A stretch of DNA of 64,000 nt from an uncultured Nitriliruptoraceae bacterium (GTDB lineage: Bacteria > Actinomycetota > Nitriliruptoria > Nitriliruptorales > Nitriliruptoraceae): NCBI GenBank assembly GCA_913060655.1, contig CAJXTG010000004.1, forward strand, positions 1 to 64,000, read 5' to 3'. The translations under genes and the position numbers were made by a program. The notes below the pieces were generated by a model, which saw nothing but the letters and a program-made list of their open reading frames with translations, had not been told where the DNA came from and searched no databases. Shown piece after piece: positions 3,942 to 60,846 of the stretch. The stretch's first letter is position 1. The number at the start of each line of letters is the position of its first letter.

Positions 3942-5686
3942 GCCGACCCGGTCCGGCGGCGCACCTTCGCGCCCGCGAGGACGTGCGTGTCGCCCCGGCC
4001 CGACCGTTCCGCGTCGCGCAGCAGCGCCGCCGTCGCCGCCAGCGCCGCACCGCCCGCGACCGGCTCGGCGACCTGCCCCGTCGCGTGGCGGATCCGCACC
4101 TCCGCCGACGTGAGCCAGCGGCGCAGCAGGTCGGCCTCCTCCCGTCCGCCCGACGTCGCCACGTCAGGGTCGTCCGGCTCCGCGAGCAGCCGGGCCGGAC
4201 CCGGCGCCGCCGGCCCGCCCGGCCGCTCCCGCCAGGTCGCGACCAGCCGGCCGTCGGTCAGGTGCGCGACCTCCACGGCCGTGCCGGTGTGCCGCTCGAC
4301 GACCAGGTCGACGTCGCGGACGAGCTCGAGGTGCCGCCGGGCCAGCGCCGCCCGGACCACCGCGGCCAGCTGCTCACGGCACGCCGCCGCCCGTTCGAAC
4401 GCCCCCTCCGCCCCGAGCTCCCGCATCCTCGCCTCGAGCAGGTCGACGAGCCCCGTGGGGTCCGTGAGCAGGTCGACGGCCCGTGCGACCACCGCCGCGT
4501 ACCCGTCGGGGGTCTGGGTCCCGTCGCACACGGCGTCGCAGCGGTGCAGGTCCTTGAGCATGCAGGCCGGGTTGTCCTGCGCGCGCCGCAGCCGCGGCCG
4601 GCACGGCCGCAGCGGCACGACCGCCTCGACCCCCTCCACGACCCGCTCGGCGACGCTGCGGGGGACCGGTCCGAGCCCCGGTGTCGTCGCGTCCGGTGCC
4701 CCGCGCGTGATCGCCAGGCGGGGGAACGGCTCCCGCGTCAGCGTCACACTCACCCCCGGGTCCGGCCGGGTCGAGCGGCGGTTGTACGGCGGGCGGCGGG
4801 CCTGCAGCTCCCGCACCTCACGCACCGCCGCCTCCAGCTCCGTCTCCACCACCGTCCAGCTGACCCGCCGGGTCGCGGCGACCAGGTCGGCGGTGCGCCG
4901 CCGCGTGTCCTGCCCGAAGTAGCTGCGCAGGCGGCGCCGCAGGTCCGTCGCCTTCCCGACGTACAGCACCGCCCCGTCGTCCCCGTGGAAGCGGTAGACG
5001 CCCGGTGCGGACGGCGCGTCCGCGATCAGGGCGATGCGCCGGTGGCTGCGGTCGCCCGTCGGCCCGCACAGCCGCAGCAGGTCCTCCACCGTCGTCGCCC
5101 CGTGACCCGCCGCCCGCTCGATCAGCCCGTGCAGCACGTGCAGCGTCGCCCGCGCGTCGTGCAGCGCCCGATGGTCGGGCGCATCGGGCGCGTGCAGATG
5201 GCGGGCGAGCGTCCCCAGCCGCAGGTCACGCACCTCGTCGCGGATCAGACGCCGTGCGAGCACCGCCGTGTCGACCACCCGCGGGCGGGGTGCCGGCAGG
5301 CCCAGCCGCGCCGCCGCCGCCCGCAGGAAGCCGAGGTCGAAGCGGGCGTTGTGGGCGACGAACACGGCGTCGCCGACGAAGTCGAGCACCGTCGGCAGCA
5401 CGGTCGCCGCATCCGGCGCGTGCGCGACGTCGGCGTCGGTGATGCCGGTGATCGCCGTGACCGACGGGGGGATGGGCACGCCCGGATGGACGAACGTGCG
5501 CAGCTCCGCGACGACCTCGCCACCGCGGGCGCGGACCGCACCGACCTCGGTGATGCGGTCCCGGTCGGGGGACAGGCCCGTCGTCTCCAGGTCGAGGACC
5601 ACGAACGTCGTGTCGACCAGCGGCGTCTGATCCGCGAACGACGTCTGCTGCGCGCCGGAGCCGGCAGCACCTGCGGTGACGGCCAC
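3926..5686 (-). CDS. DEDD 3'-5' exonuclease fused to UvrC-like GIY-YIG endonuclease
   Basis: 586-residue two-domain DNA repair protein. The N-terminal DnaQ-like exonuclease has Exo I FVVLDLETTG (D32, E34), Exo II AHNARFDLGFL and an HRALHDA Exo III motif. A GIY-YIG nuclease domain follows at about residues 228-260 (APGVYRFHG, LYVGKATDLRRRL). The rest resembles the UvrC N-terminal half, including a Cys-rich stretch. The UvrC C-terminal endonuclease and HhH parts are absent, so it recalls Cho-type proteins with an added proofreading-like domain, a known actinobacterial architecture. Start set to GTG 5686 because GGAGGGAGGG lies just upstream; the longer frame would read through tandem repeats. 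Confidence 0.88.
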   Translation of the reverse strand: MAVTAGAAGSGAQQTSFADQTPLVDTTFVVLDLETTGLSPDRDRITEVGAVRARGGEVVAELRTFVHPGVPIPPSVTAITGITDADVAHAPDAATVLPTVLDFVGDAVFVAHNARFDLGFLRAAAARLGLPAPRPRVVDTAVLARRLIRDEVRDLRLGTLARHLHAPDAPDHRALHDARATLHVLHGLIERAAGHGATTVEDLLRLCGPTGDRSHRRIALIADAPSAPGVYRFHGDDGAVLYVGKATDLRRRLRSYFGQDTRRRTADLVAATRRVSWTVVETELEAAVREVRELQARRPPYNRRSTRPDPGVSVTLTREPFPRLAITRGAPDATTPGLGPVPRSVAERVVEGVEAVVPLRPCRPRLRRAQDNPACMLKDLHRCDAVCDGTQTPDGYAAVVARAVDLLTDPTGLVDLLEARMRELGAEGAFERAAACREQLAAVVRAALARRHLELVRDVDLVVERHTGTAVEVAHLTDGRLVATWRERPGGPAAPGPARLLAEPDDPDVATSGGREEADLLRRWLTSAEVRIRHATGQVAEPVAGGAALAATAALLRDAERSGRGDTHVLAGAKVRRRTGSAQAGS

Positions 5687-24732: not shown

Positions 24733-25731
24733 GTGACCGGCTCCTCGCAGGGACGTCCCCGCCGCGCGTCCGCGCCGGTGGTCCTCGCCGCCGCGCTCAC
24801 GGCCGTCGCGCTCACCCTCGCGGCGTGCACGCCGGCGGAGCCGGCGGCGAGCGGCCCCGAACCGCTGCGCATCGCGACGGGGCCGGAGGCGGAGGCGCGG
24901 CTGCTCAGCCGCACGATGCTGCTGCTGCTCGCGGAGCGCAGCATCCCCGCGGAGGTCGTGGCGTTCGCCGACGCGCGCAGCGCACGGCAGGCCGTCGACC
25001 TCGGCGACGCCGAGCTGACCGTCGCCTACTCGGGGGAGGAGTGGCTCACACGGCTCGGCCGCGCCGACCCGCCGGCCGACCCGGAGCGGGCGTTCGAGGC
25101 GCTGGAGCGCAGCGACCGGGCGCGGGGGCTGACCTGGCTCGTGCCGACGGTCGGCCGCGGGGTGGAGGAGCCGCCGGCGAACGCGACGTTCGCGCTGTTC
25201 GTCGCCGGCCCGCCGTCGGTCCACGCCGACCTGCGATCCCTGTCCGACCTGTCGCTGCGGCTCGCGGAGCGGCCCGACCTGTCGCTGTGCATCGACACGG
25301 AGTTCGGGGGGCGGCCCGACGGGCTCGCGGCGCTGCTCAGCACCTACAGCGTCCGCCGGGACCGGCCGTTCCTCGCGTCGGGACCGGCGGAGGCGGTCCG
25401 CCGGGTCCGCGCCGGCGACTGCGTCGCCGGGCTGAGCCACGCCACCGACGGGCGCGCCTGGCGCGCCGGGCTGCGGCCGCTCGTCGACGACCTGCGGTTC
25501 TTCCCCGCGTTCGTCCCCGCCCCCGTCGTCCGGACCGAGGTGCTGGAGGCGGCACCGGCGCTCGGTCCGGCGCTCGCGCCGCTGGTCGAGCGGCTGTCCA
25601 CCGGGATGCTCGGGCGGGCGAACGCCGCGGTCGCCGGCGGCGGGGACGTGGGGGCGGTCGCGGCGGACCTCGCCGCACGCCTGCGTGCGGCCACCGGGGC
25701 AGCGTTGGCGGGTGTCACCCCCGGCGCGTAG
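24733..25731 (+). CDS. Substrate-binding lipoprotein, glycine betaine/choline (OpuAC) type
   Basis: 332-residue periplasmic-type binding protein. Signal sequence VVLAAALTAVALTLAAC gives a lipidated C32. The mature part follows the OpuAC/ProX-like plan: LRIATGPEAEARLLSRTMLLLL at the start of lobe 1, AELTVAYSGEEWLTRLG, a hinge GLTWLVPT, and SLCIDTEFGGRPDG. Compatible-solute binding is suggested by the fold, but the aromatic box residues cannot be assigned by eye. No permease or ATPase gene is adjacent, so it is an orphan binding protein. Start GTG 24733; the stop codon TAG is part of the next promoter. Confidence 0.7.
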   Translation: MTGSSQGRPRRASAPVVLAAALTAVALTLAACTPAEPAASGPEPLRIATGPEAEARLLSRTMLLLLAERSIPAEVVAFADARSARQAVDLGDAELTVAYSGEEWLTRLGRADPPADPERAFEALERSDRARGLTWLVPTVGRGVEEPPANATFALFVAGPPSVHADLRSLSDLSLRLAERPDLSLCIDTEFGGRPDGLAALLSTYSVRRDRPFLASGPAEAVRRVRAGDCVAGLSHATDGRAWRAGLRPLVDDLRFFPAFVPAPVVRTEVLEAAPALGPALAPLVERLSTGMLGRANAAVAGGGDVGAVAADLAARLRAATGAALAGVTPGA

Positions 25732-25734
25732 CAT
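25729..25734 (+). promoter_or_regulatory. Candidate -10 element TAGCAT of the DUF6504-dnaE2-dinB operon
   Basis: TANNNT hexamer formed by the preceding stop codon, directly abutting the LexA box at 25735. LexA bound there would block promoter opening. Confidence 0.55.
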
Positions 25735-25750
25735 CCGAACATCTGTTCGA
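25735..25750 (+). promoter_or_regulatory. LexA (SOS) box
   Basis: CCGAAC-ATCT-GTTCGA: a GAAC-N4-GTTC inverted repeat matching the actinobacterial/Gram-positive SOS consensus TCGAAC-RNNY-GTTCGA at 15 of 16 positions. It lies immediately after the -10 hexamer and 70 nt before the first gene of the translesion polymerase operon, which is the expected regulon member. Confidence 0.85.
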
Positions 25751-25819
25751 TTCGTCGCCCGGTCGGGTCCGGTCCGCCCGTCCCCGGCCCCGCGACGTGC
25801 TGCGCGATCCGGAGGCGGG

Positions 25820-26089
25820 ATGAAGCGGTACCGGGAGGTGCTCGACGAGGTCGAGGTCGACGGGGACGCCCCCGTCGCGTTCCGATGGCGGGGGCTGCGC
25901 CACGAGGTGGTGCAGGTGCTCGGCCACTGGCATGAGGACGCCGGCTGGTGGCGCCGCTCCGGTGGCGCCGTGCTCACGGTGGAGCGCTCCGACCTGTGGC
26001 GCGTCGAGGTGCGCGCCCCGTCGGGCGGTGGCATCCATGAGCTCGTCCGGCGCGGTGACGGCTGGCGGCTCGACCGCGTCTGGGACTGA
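25820..26089 (+). CDS. DUF6504 family protein
   Basis: 89-residue cytosolic protein. Pattern: VAFRWRGLRHEVVQVLGHWHEDAGWW, a variable strand, WRVEVRAPSGGGIHELVRRGDGWRLDRVWD (read in parts). This matches DUF6504 as I recall it, a small family found beside translesion polymerases in actinomycetes. ATG 25820 follows GGAGGCGG. It is the first gene behind the LexA box, and its stop overlaps the dnaE2 start (TGATG), so it is co-induced with the polymerases. The abundance of Trp and Arg suggests a compact beta fold able to contact protein or DNA; its function is unknown. Confidence 0.75.
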   Translation: MKRYREVLDEVEVDGDAPVAFRWRGLRHEVVQVLGHWHEDAGWWRRSGGAVLTVERSDLWRVEVRAPSGGGIHELVRRGDGWRLDRVWD

Positions 26090-29000
26090 TGGGCGCCGGG
26101 GAGGTGCCGCCCCGCTTCGCCCACCTGCGGGTCGGATCGACCTTCTCGTTGCGCGACGCGACGATCCCGCCGGAGCGGCTGCCCGAGCTCGCCGCCGCGG
26201 CGGGGATGGACCACGTCGCGCTGACCGACCGGGACGGGCTCGCCGGGACGGTCCGCTTCGTCCGCGCCGCCGCCCGGGCCGGCGTCGCACCGGTCGTCGG
26301 CGTCGACCTCGCGGTCGACCGCGAGCGGCGCACCCCGTCCGCGGCGGGCGGTGACGGTGCCGAGCCGGCCCGGGCCACCCTCCTCGCCCGCGACGCGCGC
26401 GGCTACGCGGCCCTGTGCCGTGCCGTCACGCGCGCCCACGGCGGACCGCGCGGCGCGGCCGTGCTCGACCCCGACGGGCTCGACGAGCTCGCCGGGGCCG
26501 GAGGGGTCGTCGCGCTGCTCGGGGCCGACTCCGCCGTCGGGCGGCTGCTCGCGCACGGACGGCTCGACGCGGCCGCCGTCGAGCTGGACCACTGGCGGGG
26601 ACGGTTCGGCGGCGACACGGTGCTCGGCGTGCGCAACCATCGGGTCGCACCCGGGGGGCGTCGCGTCCACGGCCGCGCCGACCCGCACGAGCCGGGCGAC
26701 GACGTCCGCATCGCGCGCACCCTCGCGCTCGCACGGCGCAGCGGGACGACGGCCGTCGCGGTCAACGACGTGCGGTACGCGACCGCGGAGGACGTCGTCG
26801 TCGCCGACGTGCTGCGCTGCATGCGCCTCGGCGTGCCCCTCGGTCCCCGGCACGTCGGCCGGACGACCTCGGCCGCATGGTTCACCGACCCCGCGGCGCA
26901 GGCGCGCCGCTTCCGGGAACGTCCGGACCTGCTCACCGCGGCCGCGGACCTGGCGGAACGCTGCGCCCTGCCGTTCACCCTCGGGGAGGTCCACGCCCCG
27001 CGGCTCACCGGCCGCAGCCCGTCGCAGGCGGCCGCGGCGCTCACCGCACGGACCCGGGCCGGACTGGTGCGTCGCCTGGGCGACCCGGCCGACCCCGTCC
27101 TCGCACGGCTCGACCACGAGCTCGCCGCGATCGACACCGAGGGGCTGCACGACCTCTTCCTCGCCGTCGCCGACGTCGTCGCCGACGTGCGGGCGGCGGG
27201 GATCCTCGTCGCCTGCCGCGGCTCGGCCGCCGGCTCGCTCGTCTGCTTCGCGCTGGGCATCAGCGACGTCGACCCGGTCGCGAACGGGCTCGCGTTCGAA
27301 CGCTTCATGAACCCCTACCGCGACGAGCTGCCCGACATCGACCTCGACGTCGAGTCGCACCGGCGCGAGGACGTCTACGACCTGGTGATCGCCCGCTACG
27401 GGGAGCACCGGGTCGCCACCGTCGGCATGTACGAGACGCTGCAGGCCCGCTCGGCGGTCCGCGGTGTCGGCGCCGCGCTCGGCCTCCCGCCCGAGGAGGT
27501 CGATCACGTGGCGCGCCAGCTGCCGCACCTGCGTGCCCGGGACGTCCGTCGGGCGCTCGACCGGCTCCCCGAGCTCGCCGGCAGCCGCCTCGACACGGAC
27601 CGGCTCGGGACGCTGCTCGACCTCGTCGCCCGGGTCGACGGGATGCCGCGGCATCTCGCGATGCACCCGTGCGGGATCCTGCTCGGGGACGACACGCTGC
27701 TGGGCCGCACGCCCGTGCAGCGCAGCGCGCACGGCTACCCCGTCAGCCAGTTCGACAAGGACGACGTGGCCGCGCTCGGGCTGCTCAAGCTCGACGTCCT
27801 CGGCGTCCGCATGCTGTCGGCGATGCGGCACTGCCTCGACCTGGTCAACGGGGTCACCCGTCAGCCCGACGAGCCGCGCACGCCGACGCGCCGCGCCGCC
27901 GACGCGGCGGTGCCCGGCTGGCAGGACGGTCCGTTCACCCTCGACCTGGTCGCGCACGACGACCCGGCGACCTACGACCTGATCCGCTCGACGCACTCCG
28001 TCGGCATGTTCCAGATCGAGTCGCCCGGCCAGCGGGAGCTGCTCGGCCGGCTGCAGCCGGACCGCTTCGGGGACCTGATCGCCGAGATCTCCCTGTTCCG
28101 TCCCGGGCCGATGCGGGCGGACATGATCACGCCCTACGTCGCCCGCCGGCACGGTGAGGACGAGGTCCGGGTCGCCCACCCGTCGCTCGCGCCGGTCCTC
28201 GCCGAGACGTTCGGCGTCATCGTCTACCACGAGCAGGTGATGGGGGTCCTGTCGGCGCTGACCGGCTGCGACGCGTCCGAGGCGGACCTGCTGCGCCGGC
28301 GGCTGGGGGATGCGGACGGGCAGCGGCTCGTCCACCGTCTCGTGCGCGAGCGTGCCGCGGAGCGGGGGCTCGACCGGGACGTCGTCGAGGAGGTGTTCGC
28401 CGACGTCGCGTCGTTCGCCGCGTTCGGGTTCTGCAAGGCGCACGCGGCCGCGTTCGCGGTGCCGACCGAACGCTCCGCGTTCCTCAAGGCCCACCTGCTC
28501 CCCGAGTTCATGGCCGGGCTGATCGCCCACGACCCGGGGATGTACCCGCGGCGCCTGCTCGTGGAGGAGTGCCGGCTGTTCGGCGTGCCCGTCCTCGCGC
28601 CGGACGTCGAGCGCTCCGGACGGGACCCGGACGTGACCGTCGTCACCGCCGACGAGGGGGACGCGCGGCTCGGGCTGGTCGCCGCCCGGGCCGCGCACCT
28701 CCGCGGGGAGGACCCGCACCCGCACCTGCCGGCCGGCTGGTCCTGGCCGGACGGGGCCGACGACCCGCTGCCCCCGACCGGGCGGGACGCGGGACGTCGG
28801 CCGGACGGCACCCGGTGGGCGGTCCGGCTCGGGCTGGGCGTCGTCGCCGAGCTCGGCGCCCAGGACGTCGCCCGGCTGCTCGCCGAGCGCCCCTTCGCCG
28901 ACCTGTTCGCGCTGCGCGACCGCGGGGGCGTCGCCCGCGACGGTGCGCTCGCCCTGGTCGATGCGGGCGCGCTGGACGGGCTCGCCGGCGTCGGCCGACC

Positions 29001-29721
29001 GGACGGTCCGCCCGACCGGCGCACGCTGCGCCTGCTCGTGGAGGAGCACTGGTCGTCGTCGCGGCGTCGTCCCACCGTCGGGACGGCGCAGGTGGCGCTG
29101 CCGCTCCCGCTGGGCTCCTCGGAGGTGGGGCTGCCGCCGCAGCCGTCGGCCGCCCGTGTCCGGGCGGAGCTGCGCGCGACCGGGGTCGACCTGAGCGCGC
29201 ACGTCGTCGGCTTCTACGCCCCGCTGCTCGCTGCGCTCGGCGTGGTGGACGCGTCGCGGCTGCGGGAGGTGCCGAGCGGTCGACGGGTCCGGGTCGCCGG
29301 CATCCGCGTGGCGTTGCAGTCGCCGCCGCAGCGGTCGGGGGAGCGGGTGCTGTTCCTCACGCTCGACGACCGGACCGGGCAGAGCCAGGTCACCTTCTTC
29401 ACCCGTGCGCTCGCGGACTGTGCGTGGGTGGTGCGCACCGCCGAGCTCGTCGTCGCCGAGGGGGTGGTCGCCCGGCGCGGCCGGCGCGGAGCGACCGTCG
29501 TCGGACGCCGCGCCTGGGACCTCACCCGGCTGTGGCGTGCATGGCAGGACGGGGCGCTCCCCGCCGCGCTGGCCGAACGTGGGACACCCGCACCGCACGT
29601 CGTCGCCGACCGGTCCTCCCCGGGCCGGTGGCGCGACGTACGGTCCGACCCGACCAGGAGCCCGAACGGCGGCCCGGTCAGGGGCCCGAGCGGGGGCCCG
29701 AGCGGGGGGAGGGGACGGTGA
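26089..29721 (+). CDS. dnaE2: Error-prone DNA polymerase III alpha (DnaE2/ImuC)
   Basis: 1210-residue C-family polymerase for damage-induced translesion synthesis. Catalytic aspartates D416 and D418 lie in LPDIDLD; CRGSAAGSLVCF and FAAFGFCKAHAAAFA are family landmarks, and a C-terminal OB domain (RRVRVAGIRVALQS) is present. It lacks the clamp-binding tail region of replicative DnaE1, which is encoded separately at 55.8 kb. The N-terminal PHP domain is degenerate: metal-binding His positions are R14, G16, R48 and R229. Length is somewhat above typical DnaE2. Second gene of the LexA-controlled operon; stop and dinB GTG overlap (GTGA). Confidence 0.93.
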   Translation: MGAGEVPPRFAHLRVGSTFSLRDATIPPERLPELAAAAGMDHVALTDRDGLAGTVRFVRAAARAGVAPVVGVDLAVDRERRTPSAAGGDGAEPARATLLARDARGYAALCRAVTRAHGGPRGAAVLDPDGLDELAGAGGVVALLGADSAVGRLLAHGRLDAAAVELDHWRGRFGGDTVLGVRNHRVAPGGRRVHGRADPHEPGDDVRIARTLALARRSGTTAVAVNDVRYATAEDVVVADVLRCMRLGVPLGPRHVGRTTSAAWFTDPAAQARRFRERPDLLTAAADLAERCALPFTLGEVHAPRLTGRSPSQAAAALTARTRAGLVRRLGDPADPVLARLDHELAAIDTEGLHDLFLAVADVVADVRAAGILVACRGSAAGSLVCFALGISDVDPVANGLAFERFMNPYRDELPDIDLDVESHRREDVYDLVIARYGEHRVATVGMYETLQARSAVRGVGAALGLPPEEVDHVARQLPHLRARDVRRALDRLPELAGSRLDTDRLGTLLDLVARVDGMPRHLAMHPCGILLGDDTLLGRTPVQRSAHGYPVSQFDKDDVAALGLLKLDVLGVRMLSAMRHCLDLVNGVTRQPDEPRTPTRRAADAAVPGWQDGPFTLDLVAHDDPATYDLIRSTHSVGMFQIESPGQRELLGRLQPDRFGDLIAEISLFRPGPMRADMITPYVARRHGEDEVRVAHPSLAPVLAETFGVIVYHEQVMGVLSALTGCDASEADLLRRRLGDADGQRLVHRLVRERAAERGLDRDVVEEVFADVASFAAFGFCKAHAAAFAVPTERSAFLKAHLLPEFMAGLIAHDPGMYPRRLLVEECRLFGVPVLAPDVERSGRDPDVTVVTADEGDARLGLVAARAAHLRGEDPHPHLPAGWSWPDGADDPLPPTGRDAGRRPDGTRWAVRLGLGVVAELGAQDVARLLAERPFADLFALRDRGGVARDGALALVDAGALDGLAGVGRPDGPPDRRTLRLLVEEHWSSSRRRPTVGTAQVALPLPLGSSEVGLPPQPSAARVRAELRATGVDLSAHVVGFYAPLLAALGVVDASRLREVPSGRRVRVAGIRVALQSPPQRSGERVLFLTLDDRTGQSQVTFFTRALADCAWVVRTAELVVAEGVVARRGRRGATVVGRRAWDLTRLWRAWQDGALPAALAERGTPAPHVVADRSSPGRWRDVRSDPTRSPNGGPVRGPSGGPSGGRGR

Positions 29722-30959
29722 GCACCGCGGTGGCGCGTCCTCCCGAGCCGATCCTCCACGTCGACATGGACGCGTTCTACGCGTCGGTGGAGCAGCGGGA
29801 CGACCCGGACCTGCGCGGGCGTCCGGTCGCGGTGGGGTCGCCGACCGGCCGTGGCGTCGTCGCGGCCGCGTCCTACGAGGCGCGGGCGTCGGGGGTGCGC
29901 AGCGCGATGCCGATGGTGCGTGCCCGTCGGCTGTGCCCCGACCTCGTCGTCGTCCCGCCACGCTTCGACCGTTACCGCGACGTCTCCCACCGGCTGATGG
30001 CCCTGCTGCGGGACGTCACCCCGCTGGTCGAGCCCCTGTCGTTGGACGAGGCGTTCCTCGACGTGGCCGGTGCGGTCCGGCTGTTCGGGGATCCGCCGAC
30101 GATCGGGCACCACCTGCGCGGGCGCGTCCGCGACGAGCTGTCGCTGCCGTGCTCGGTCGGGGTCGGTCCGACGAAGTCGGTCGCGAAGCTGCTGTCGGGC
30201 CTGGCGAAGCCGGACGGGCTGCTGCACTGGCCGGCGGCCGAGGTCGTCGAACGGCTGCGCCCGCTGCCGGTGCGGCTGCTGTGGGGGGCGGGGCCGCGCA
30301 CGTCGGAGCGTCTGGTCGAGCACGGGCTGGCGACGGTCGGCGACGTCGCGGACACGGACGTGCGGGTCCTGCGCCGGCTGGTGGGCGACGCCCTGGGCGG
30401 GCGGCTGCACGACCTCGCCCACGGGCGTGACGACCGGCGCGTCGAGCCCGTCCAGGACGCCCGTTCCGTCTCGGCGGAGACGACGTTCGACGACGACGTG
30501 GACGATCCGGTCGTCCTCGAGCGCCGGCTGCAGCGGCTCGCCACCGGGGTCACCCGCCGCCTGCGTGCGCAGGGGCTGGCCGCGCGGACGGTCACGGTGA
30601 AGGTCCGCTTCGCCGACCATCGTGACGTCACCCGGTCGCACACGCTGCCCCGACCGACCGACCGGACCCACGACCTCGTCGCGGCGGGGCGTGAGCTGCT
30701 CGCCGCGCTGCGGCTCGGACGGACGCGGGTGCGGCTGATCGGCTTCCGCCTCAGCGGGCTCGGGGCGCCGGAGGGCGCCGCCCAGCTGGCGCTGCTCGAC
30801 GACGGGGGCACGACCGTGCTGCCCGAGGGGCAGGAGCCGGGGGAGCGCTGGTCGGCGCTGGACCGCGCCGCCGACGCGATCGCCGACCGCTACGGGCAGC
30901 CGGCGGTGTCGTTCGCCTCGCTGCTCGACGACGAGGAGCGGGACGGGTCCGGCGGCTGA
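29718..30959 (+). CDS. dinB: Y-family DNA polymerase IV (DinB)
   Basis: 413-residue translesion polymerase. Catalytic residues are intact: D16 (with D18) in HVDMDAFYASVE and D110-E111 in SLDEAFLDV. The steric-gate region FYASVE and the palm/finger motif CSVGVGPTKSVAKLLSG are clear. The little-finger domain ends with QLALLDD, a likely beta-clamp-binding QLxLF-type peptide. This is a true polymerase, unlike ImuB, which lacks catalytic acids. GTG 29718 overlaps the dnaE2 stop, so the two polymerases are translated together. With DUF6504 they make a LexA-controlled cassette. Confidence 0.95.
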   Translation: MSTAVARPPEPILHVDMDAFYASVEQRDDPDLRGRPVAVGSPTGRGVVAAASYEARASGVRSAMPMVRARRLCPDLVVVPPRFDRYRDVSHRLMALLRDVTPLVEPLSLDEAFLDVAGAVRLFGDPPTIGHHLRGRVRDELSLPCSVGVGPTKSVAKLLSGLAKPDGLLHWPAAEVVERLRPLPVRLLWGAGPRTSERLVEHGLATVGDVADTDVRVLRRLVGDALGGRLHDLAHGRDDRRVEPVQDARSVSAETTFDDDVDDPVVLERRLQRLATGVTRRLRAQGLAARTVTVKVRFADHRDVTRSHTLPRPTDRTHDLVAAGRELLAALRLGRTRVRLIGFRLSGLGAPEGAAQLALLDDGGTTVLPEGQEPGERWSALDRAADAIADRYGQPAVSFASLLDDEERDGSGG

Positions 30960-59520: not shown

Positions 59521-60846
59521 ATGTCACGTCTGCGGGTCCTCGACCTCCGAGGCGACCGGAGCGACCCCCGCGACCGGATGCCGCGCCCACGCATCGACCT
59601 CGAGGCGGCCCGTGCGGGCGTGCTCGACAGCATCGCGGCCGTCGCCGCCGACGGTGACGACGCGCTCGTGCGGCTGACCGCCCGCTTCGACGGCGTGGAC
59701 GTCGCCGACGGGCTCGTCGTCCCCGACGCGGTGCTCGACGCGGCGCTCGACGACCTGGACCCGGGGCTGCGCGGGGCGATCGAACGCGCGGCGGACCAGG
59801 TGCGTTGGTTCCACGAGCGGGCCCGTCCCGCCGACTGGGAGGACGTCCGTGACGGCGCCCGGATGGGGGTGTGGCACCGTCCCGTCACCCGCGCCGGCGT
59901 GTACGTGCCCGGCGGCAAGGCCGTGTACCCCTCGACGGTCATCATGACCGTCGTCCCCGCCCGCGTCGCCGGCGTCGAGGAGCTCGTGCTCTGCACCCCG
60001 CCGACCGGGGTCGGCCCTAACGGGTCGCCCGACGGCTGGCCCGACCGGACCATCCTCGCCGCCGCACGCCTGCTCGGGGTCGACCGGGTCGTGCGTGTCG
60101 GTGGGGCGCAGGCGGTCGCGGCGATGGCCCACGGCACCGCCAGCGTGCCCCGCTGCGACGTCGTCGTCGGTCCGGGCAACCTGTACGTGTCGCTCGCGAA
60201 GCAGCTCCTCGCCGCGGAGGGTCGCATCGGGACCGACGGCTACGCCGGACCGACCGAGATCGGCATCGTCGCCGACGACACCGCCGACCCGGCCGTGCTC
60301 GCCGCCGACCTCGTCGCCCAGGCCGAGCACGACGAGCTCGCGACCGCGCTGCTCATCACCACCGACGCCGACGGTGTCGCGGCCGTCGAACGTGCGCTCG
60401 AGCAGGAGGTCGCCCGCGCCCACCACCGGGAACGCGTCGAGGCGGCCCTCGCCGGCCAGGGGACCGTCGCCCTCGTCGACGACATCGACCACGCCGTCGC
60501 CGTCGCCGAGGCGTTCGCCGCCGAGCACCTCGAGGTGCACACGCGTGCGGCCCGGGAGGTCGCCGCCCGCATCCGCTACGCGGGGACGACGTTCATCGGT
60601 CGGGACACGCCCGTCAGCCTCGGCGACTACGCGGCCGGTCCGAACCACACCCTCCCGACGTCCGGCACGGCGCGCTTCCAGGGCGGGCTGACGACGGCGT
60701 CGTTCCTCGTCCCCGTCAACTTCGTCGAGTACGACCGGCCGGCGCTGGAGGACCTCGCCGACAGCGTCCGGATGCTGTCCGACGCCGAGCAGCTCCCGGC
60801 GCACTGGCGTGCCGTCGAGGTGCGGCTCGACGGGCCGTCCCGATGA
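59521..60846 (+). CDS. hisD: Histidinol dehydrogenase
   Basis: 441-residue NAD- and zinc-dependent enzyme performing the last two steps of histidine synthesis. Landmarks: RPADWEDVRDGARMGVWHRPV, GVYVPGGKAVYPSTVIM, VGPGNLYVSLAKQLL, DGYAGPTEIGIVAD, and GPNHTLPTSGTARFQGGL with the zinc/catalytic His. ATG 59521 is preceded by a GGAGCACGC sequence. First gene of a tight his operon in the order D-C-B-H-A-F; the hisC ATG overlaps its stop. Confidence 0.97.
   Translation: MSRLRVLDLRGDRSDPRDRMPRPRIDLEAARAGVLDSIAAVAADGDDALVRLTARFDGVDVADGLVVPDAVLDAALDDLDPGLRGAIERAADQVRWFHERARPADWEDVRDGARMGVWHRPVTRAGVYVPGGKAVYPSTVIMTVVPARVAGVEELVLCTPPTGVGPNGSPDGWPDRTILAAARLLGVDRVVRVGGAQAVAAMAHGTASVPRCDVVVGPGNLYVSLAKQLLAAEGRIGTDGYAGPTEIGIVADDTADPAVLAADLVAQAEHDELATALLITTDADGVAAVERALEQEVARAHHRERVEAALAGQGTVALVDDIDHAVAVAEAFAAEHLEVHTRAAREVAARIRYAGTTFIGRDTPVSLGDYAAGPNHTLPTSGTARFQGGLTTASFLVPVNFVEYDRPALEDLADSVRMLSDAEQLPAHWRAVEVRLDGPSR

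Follow-up and report, generated by a model that had tools for sequence, protein, structure and literature searches.

A predicted LexA-controlled DUF6504-dnaE2-dinB operon of the Nitriliruptoria pairs a standalone ImuB-C protein with DnaE2 and an intact Y-family polymerase

ImuB-C was described by Aravind et al. 2013 (PMC3765255) as the tail of ImuB, and also as a standalone protein encoded beside DinB or DnaE2. A set designated DnaE2B-PolY-[ImuB-C]-RecA is known from Actinobacteria, with Tessaracoccus lapidicaptus as an example (Timinskas & Venclovas, NAR 2026, PMC12926913); the main text of that paper does not mention LexA or use the name DUF6504. In AlphaFold models of ImuB-DnaE2, ImuB-C sits against the PHP domain of DnaE2 (PMC12926913). 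The dnaE2-dinP genes of Streptomyces venezuelae are bound by LexA and induced by mitomycin C (PMC9380542).

The window, the whole stretch of 64,000 nucleotides analysed here, carries three overlapping genes behind one near-consensus LexA box. The features are as follows.

25735..25750, no strand assigned: predicted LexA-binding SOS box, CCGAACATCTGTTCGA, 85 bases 5' of the first start codon.
25820..26089, plus strand: DUF6504 (PF20114), assigned as a standalone ImuB-C protein of 89 aa with an all-beta fold, from Pfam, homology to ImuB tails and AlphaFold.
26089..29721, plus strand: DnaE2, an error-prone C-family polymerase of the DnaE2B type, 1210 aa, from Pfam domains including PHP, the tree and motifs.
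29718..30959, plus strand: DinB/Pol IV, 413 aa, from Pfam IMS/IMS_C, with residues checked.

The box CCGAACATCTGTTCGA departs from TCGAAC-N4-GTTCGA at one of the 12 fixed positions, and three congeners have an SOS box in the same place. DUF6504 starts with ATG at 25820, and its TGA stop (26087-26089) shares one base with the dnaE2 ATG at 26089 (TGATG); dinB in turn begins with a GTG at 29718 that overlaps the dnaE2 stop codon, 29719-29721 (GTGA). Pfam confirms all three genes, and both the LexA box and the overlapping stops and starts agree with a sequence-only reading of this DNA. Across the whole genome the SOS-box pattern, with at most one mismatch, occurs at 22 places, against 1 for a reversed control pattern. 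These matches include the recA box (C3:37206) and three boxes before lexA (C3:48908-49021); the genome has a single RecA and a single LexA, and SOS boxes precede both. The predicted box in the promoter region, together with the LexA in the genome, makes the operon a predicted member of the LexA regulon. The same reading had set a -10 element against the box, and this part was not confirmed: a sigma-70 scan at 25735-25750 found no promoter, and the TAGCAT at 25729 matches a -10 only weakly and overlaps the stop codon of the upstream gene. That gene, for an OpuAC-type substrate-binding protein (24745-25731), ends four bases 5' of the SOS box, with its stop overlapping the proposed -10. Another SOS-like box with one mismatch, TCGAACGTGCGCTCGA, lies at 60386-60401, downstream of dnaE1, and may be a chance occurrence.

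The window's DUF6504 protein matches PF20114 in Pfam (E 4.6e-8). In a Sphingomonas ImuB encoded in an imuA-imuB-dnaE2 operon, the same family matches residues 515-593 (E 3.8e-5, barely above the curated cut-off), and it also matches the C-termini of an Agrobacterium ImuB (at the cut-off) and a Rhizobium ImuB (barely below it); E values for the three alphaproteobacterial C-termini range from 4e-5 to 7e-5. Among the control genomes PF20114 has a match in Caulobacter only, an organism with an imuAB-dnaE2 operon (PMC8072749). The tails of Burkholderia ImuB and of the ImuB2 proteins found within the class itself gave no PF20114 match. Profile comparison with hhalign of 18 DUF6504 proteins of the class against six ImuB tails gives a probability of 92.8% and E 4e-7. 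The AlphaFold model has nine beta strands (pLDDT 92.9). Conserved residues are the C-terminal Trp, W88, and R5, R24, R61 and R86, the Trp and Arg residues being invariant; a small beta-rich domain with a conserved C-terminal Trp and basic residues fits the ImuB-C family. A PDB fold search with the model returned no match at E <0.2; the best fold match (Z 6.7, cystatin-like scaffolds) is within the range of common arrangements, and ImuB-C is likewise described by Timinskas & Venclovas as having no convincing PDB relative (PMC12926913). NCBIfam gave no match to DUF6504 and PHROGs only a chance-like match of 11 residues, and the name DUF6504 was not found in the literature searched. Because of the matches of PF20114 to ImuB tails, the profile comparison, the fold and the definition of Aravind et al. 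2013, DUF6504 is identified here, by homology, as the C-terminal domain of ImuB made as a separate protein and not as a new factor. One ImuB module is therefore present in the genome.

The window's DnaE2 retains the catalytic PDIDLD at 415-420 (PDxDxD). Its PHP motif reads HLRVGS, as against HLHVHS in DnaE1, so the metal-binding histidines are lost. In a tree of 75 rows all seven ImuB-linked DnaE2 proteins fall on one side of a branch with support 100, and the window's DnaE2 clusters with a Streptomyces plasmid DnaE2 and DUF6504-linked DnaE2s in a group of 63 rows (support 100). By sequence, this split matches DnaE2A versus DnaE2B of PMC12926913, the one labelled DnaE2B reference being the Streptomyces-type case.

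DinB has D16, D110 and E111 intact and a clamp peptide, QLALL, at 356-360, as the sequence-only reading had it, and the catalytic D, D and E are kept in 61 of 61 aligned PolYs. It is the one Y-family gene of the genome, which is 1.67 Mb and 96.6% complete; C-family genes number two, with dnaE1 at 55.7-59.4 kb of the window. A query with ImuA of the class and a search for Y-family genes located no ImuA or ImuB elsewhere in this 96.6% complete genome, in line with the earlier expectation. The two genes are likely truly missing, with some uncertainty left by the completeness. The locus is thus not of the ImuA-ImuB-DnaE2 type: ImuA is not found, and the PolY is intact and not a fused, dead ImuB. 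A small genome of 1.67 Mb without ImuA or ImuB could suggest that the operon is a degenerate remnant, left by erosion of an imuA-imuB-dnaE2 cassette in a reduced genome. This is highly improbable: relatives with genomes of 3-6 Mb carry the same set and the catalytic residues are all retained. The eroded cassette was rejected on the position of the window's DnaE2 outside the ImuB-linked clade of the tree and on the survey.

DUF6504 is present in 52 of the 66 genomes of the class Nitriliruptoria. In all 29 class genomes that have DUF6504 and DnaE2 on one contig, DnaE2 follows DUF6504 on the same strand, and PolY lies beyond DnaE2, again on the same strand, in all 23 with a shared contig. The spacing of the three ranges from overlapping genes in the window's genus to more than 20 kb elsewhere in the class. 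Of 26 class loci, 22 have an SOS box with one mismatch or none between -300 and +75 of DUF6504, and 25 have one when two mismatches are allowed; the same DNA gives a background of 0.04 per interval and a Markov model one of <0.001. When DUF6504 is distant DnaE2 has its own SOS box at 14 of 17 loci, and when it is adjacent at none of 10 (P = 3e-5, kinship ignored). At locus L056 (class genome G014, 1711-1995) the DUF6504 copy enters a stretch of N and its reading is incomplete.

ImuA occurs in five of the 66 class genomes, four of one family and one of another. All five are without DUF6504, and each has a weak-scoring Y-family gene resembling ImuB. In G007 (L064, L065) and G027-G030 (L058, L061), ImuA-ImuB-DnaE2A stands in place of the DUF6504 set, a pattern which suggests that one mutasome type was replaced by the other.

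PolY is commonly followed by DUF3040, in the class and in the phylum, and mraZ also follows in the two cases seen; the set therefore occupies an old chromosomal place before the division gene cluster. This neighbourhood is open to a different reading, in which two units share one LexA promoter: ImuB-C and DnaE2 would form the mutagenic enzyme, and DinB would be an ordinary Pol IV in its ancestral place beside DUF3040/mraZ. The PolY-DUF3040 neighbourhood is a conserved place across class and phylum, the three genes are kilobases apart with separate boxes in many relatives, and a DnaE2-[ImuB-C] type without PolY has been published (PMC12926913). Because the genes often separate, such a lone DinB is a real, if doubtful, possibility. 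Against it, order and co-orientation are unbroken throughout the class, DinB is the sole Y-family gene in the genome, and in the window's genus all three genes share one overlapping operon.

In a phylum sample of 149 genomes PF20114 is found in 58. Outside the class there are 47 DUF6504 loci: the neighbour is a C-family polymerase at 35, a PolY alone at 7, and neither of these at 5; the expectation that DUF6504 keeps mostly to polymerases was borne out. Among the first 33 loci outside the class (L097-L129), 30 have an SOS box when two mismatches are allowed. The labels E1 and E2 used in the phylum survey are score comparisons of two single sequences, and four polymerases labelled E1 beside DUF6504 form a separate DnaE2-like branch in the 75-row tree. 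Some copies without polymerase neighbours or SOS box lie beside a GalT-like gene (L133, L135), and others adjoin a gene for myo-inositol-1-phosphate synthase (L137, L140); these four may represent another branch of the family. In Nonomuraea gerenzanensis (L036, 5213-6010) an unannotated DUF6504-like frame lies directly 5' of DnaE2, and position 5666 carries an SOS-like box.

The 7 loci with DUF6504 beside PolY alone speak for the proposal of Aravind et al. 2013 (PMC3765255) by which ImuB-C/DUF6504 would be a sensor of DNA damage, binding the damaged DNA and so recruiting either polymerase, with no protein bridge. The invariant Trp and Arg residues would suit such a sensor. The published AlphaFold models, in which ImuB-C contacts DnaE2 at the PHP domain (PMC12926913), argue against it, and we consider it unlikely.

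The operon very probably encodes a translesion polymerase set under LexA control, belonging to the type that combines DnaE2B, an active PolY, standalone ImuB-C and RecA. For this set we infer a protein complex, with binding among its members, hand-off and mutagenesis. On DNA damage RecA would trigger LexA cleavage, and the three proteins would be produced together. QLALL would let DinB anchor the set to the sliding clamp, and the C-terminal motif of DinB may contact RecA. PolY tails have a conserved C-terminal motif (ERWSALDRAADAIADRYGQPAVSFASLL in DinB) resembling an N-terminal motif of RecA; within the RecA of this genome it matches best at residues 37-58 (numbering of the sequence used), the N-terminal oligomerisation segment, with weak statistics (310 of 5000 single-sequence shuffles; column permutation mildly positive, 85 of 3000). 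An HMM of the PolY tails gave no significant match to RecA. The small beta-barrel of ImuB-C would bind DnaE2 at its PHP domain, which is inactive, and so link DnaE2 to DinB. Active DinB and active DnaE2 could then divide insertion opposite the lesion and extension past it, and this shared bypass would lead to damage-induced mutagenesis. That both polymerases are active simultaneously, joined by ImuB-C and anchored by RecA, and hand over the primer end, is put forward tentatively.

The sequence-only reading saw in DUF6504 an accessory factor of an alternative mutasome. The linkage to polymerases stands; the factor, as ImuB-C, is not new, and neither is the mutasome type, since sets of DnaE2, PolY and ImuB-C without ImuA were described in 2013, 2019 and 2026. 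DUF6504 of actinobacteria is now identified with the ImuB-C subunit, and the survey adds that, across the class and in a large part of the phylum, its gene comes with an SOS box of its own. With all three parts in one operon and no second Y-family gene, the genome of 1.67 Mb is a simple natural test bed for whether DnaE2 depends on ImuB-C and on an active PolY. The separate ImuB-C is also relevant to the origin of ImuB by fusion.

Among known systems, the mycobacterial ImuA'-ImuB-DnaE2 mutasome is like the window in having a LexA-controlled DnaE2 and an ImuB-C domain; unlike the window, it has ImuA', a dead PolY fused to ImuB-C, and DnaE2A. Streptomyces dnaE2-dinP/dinB2 shares the DnaE2B clade, an adjoining PolY and LexA control, but its PolY is predicted inactive and ImuB-C is not reported there. 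The ImuY system, in which UV mutagenesis requires ImuY and DnaE2, also combines a standalone ImuB-C, DnaE2 and PolY under LexA control without ImuA; it differs in that ImuY is predicted inactive and lexA lies inside the operon. The DnaE2B-PolY-[ImuB-C]-RecA set agrees with the window in its active Y-family polymerase, its standalone ImuB-C, its occurrence in Actinobacteria, and a DnaE2 of the non-ImuA clade without ImuA or ImuB, whereas the window has its three genes overlapping in one operon with one LexA box. The DUF6504-DnaE2-DinB set is real and widespread, and belongs to a type of polymerase set already described between 2013 and 2026.
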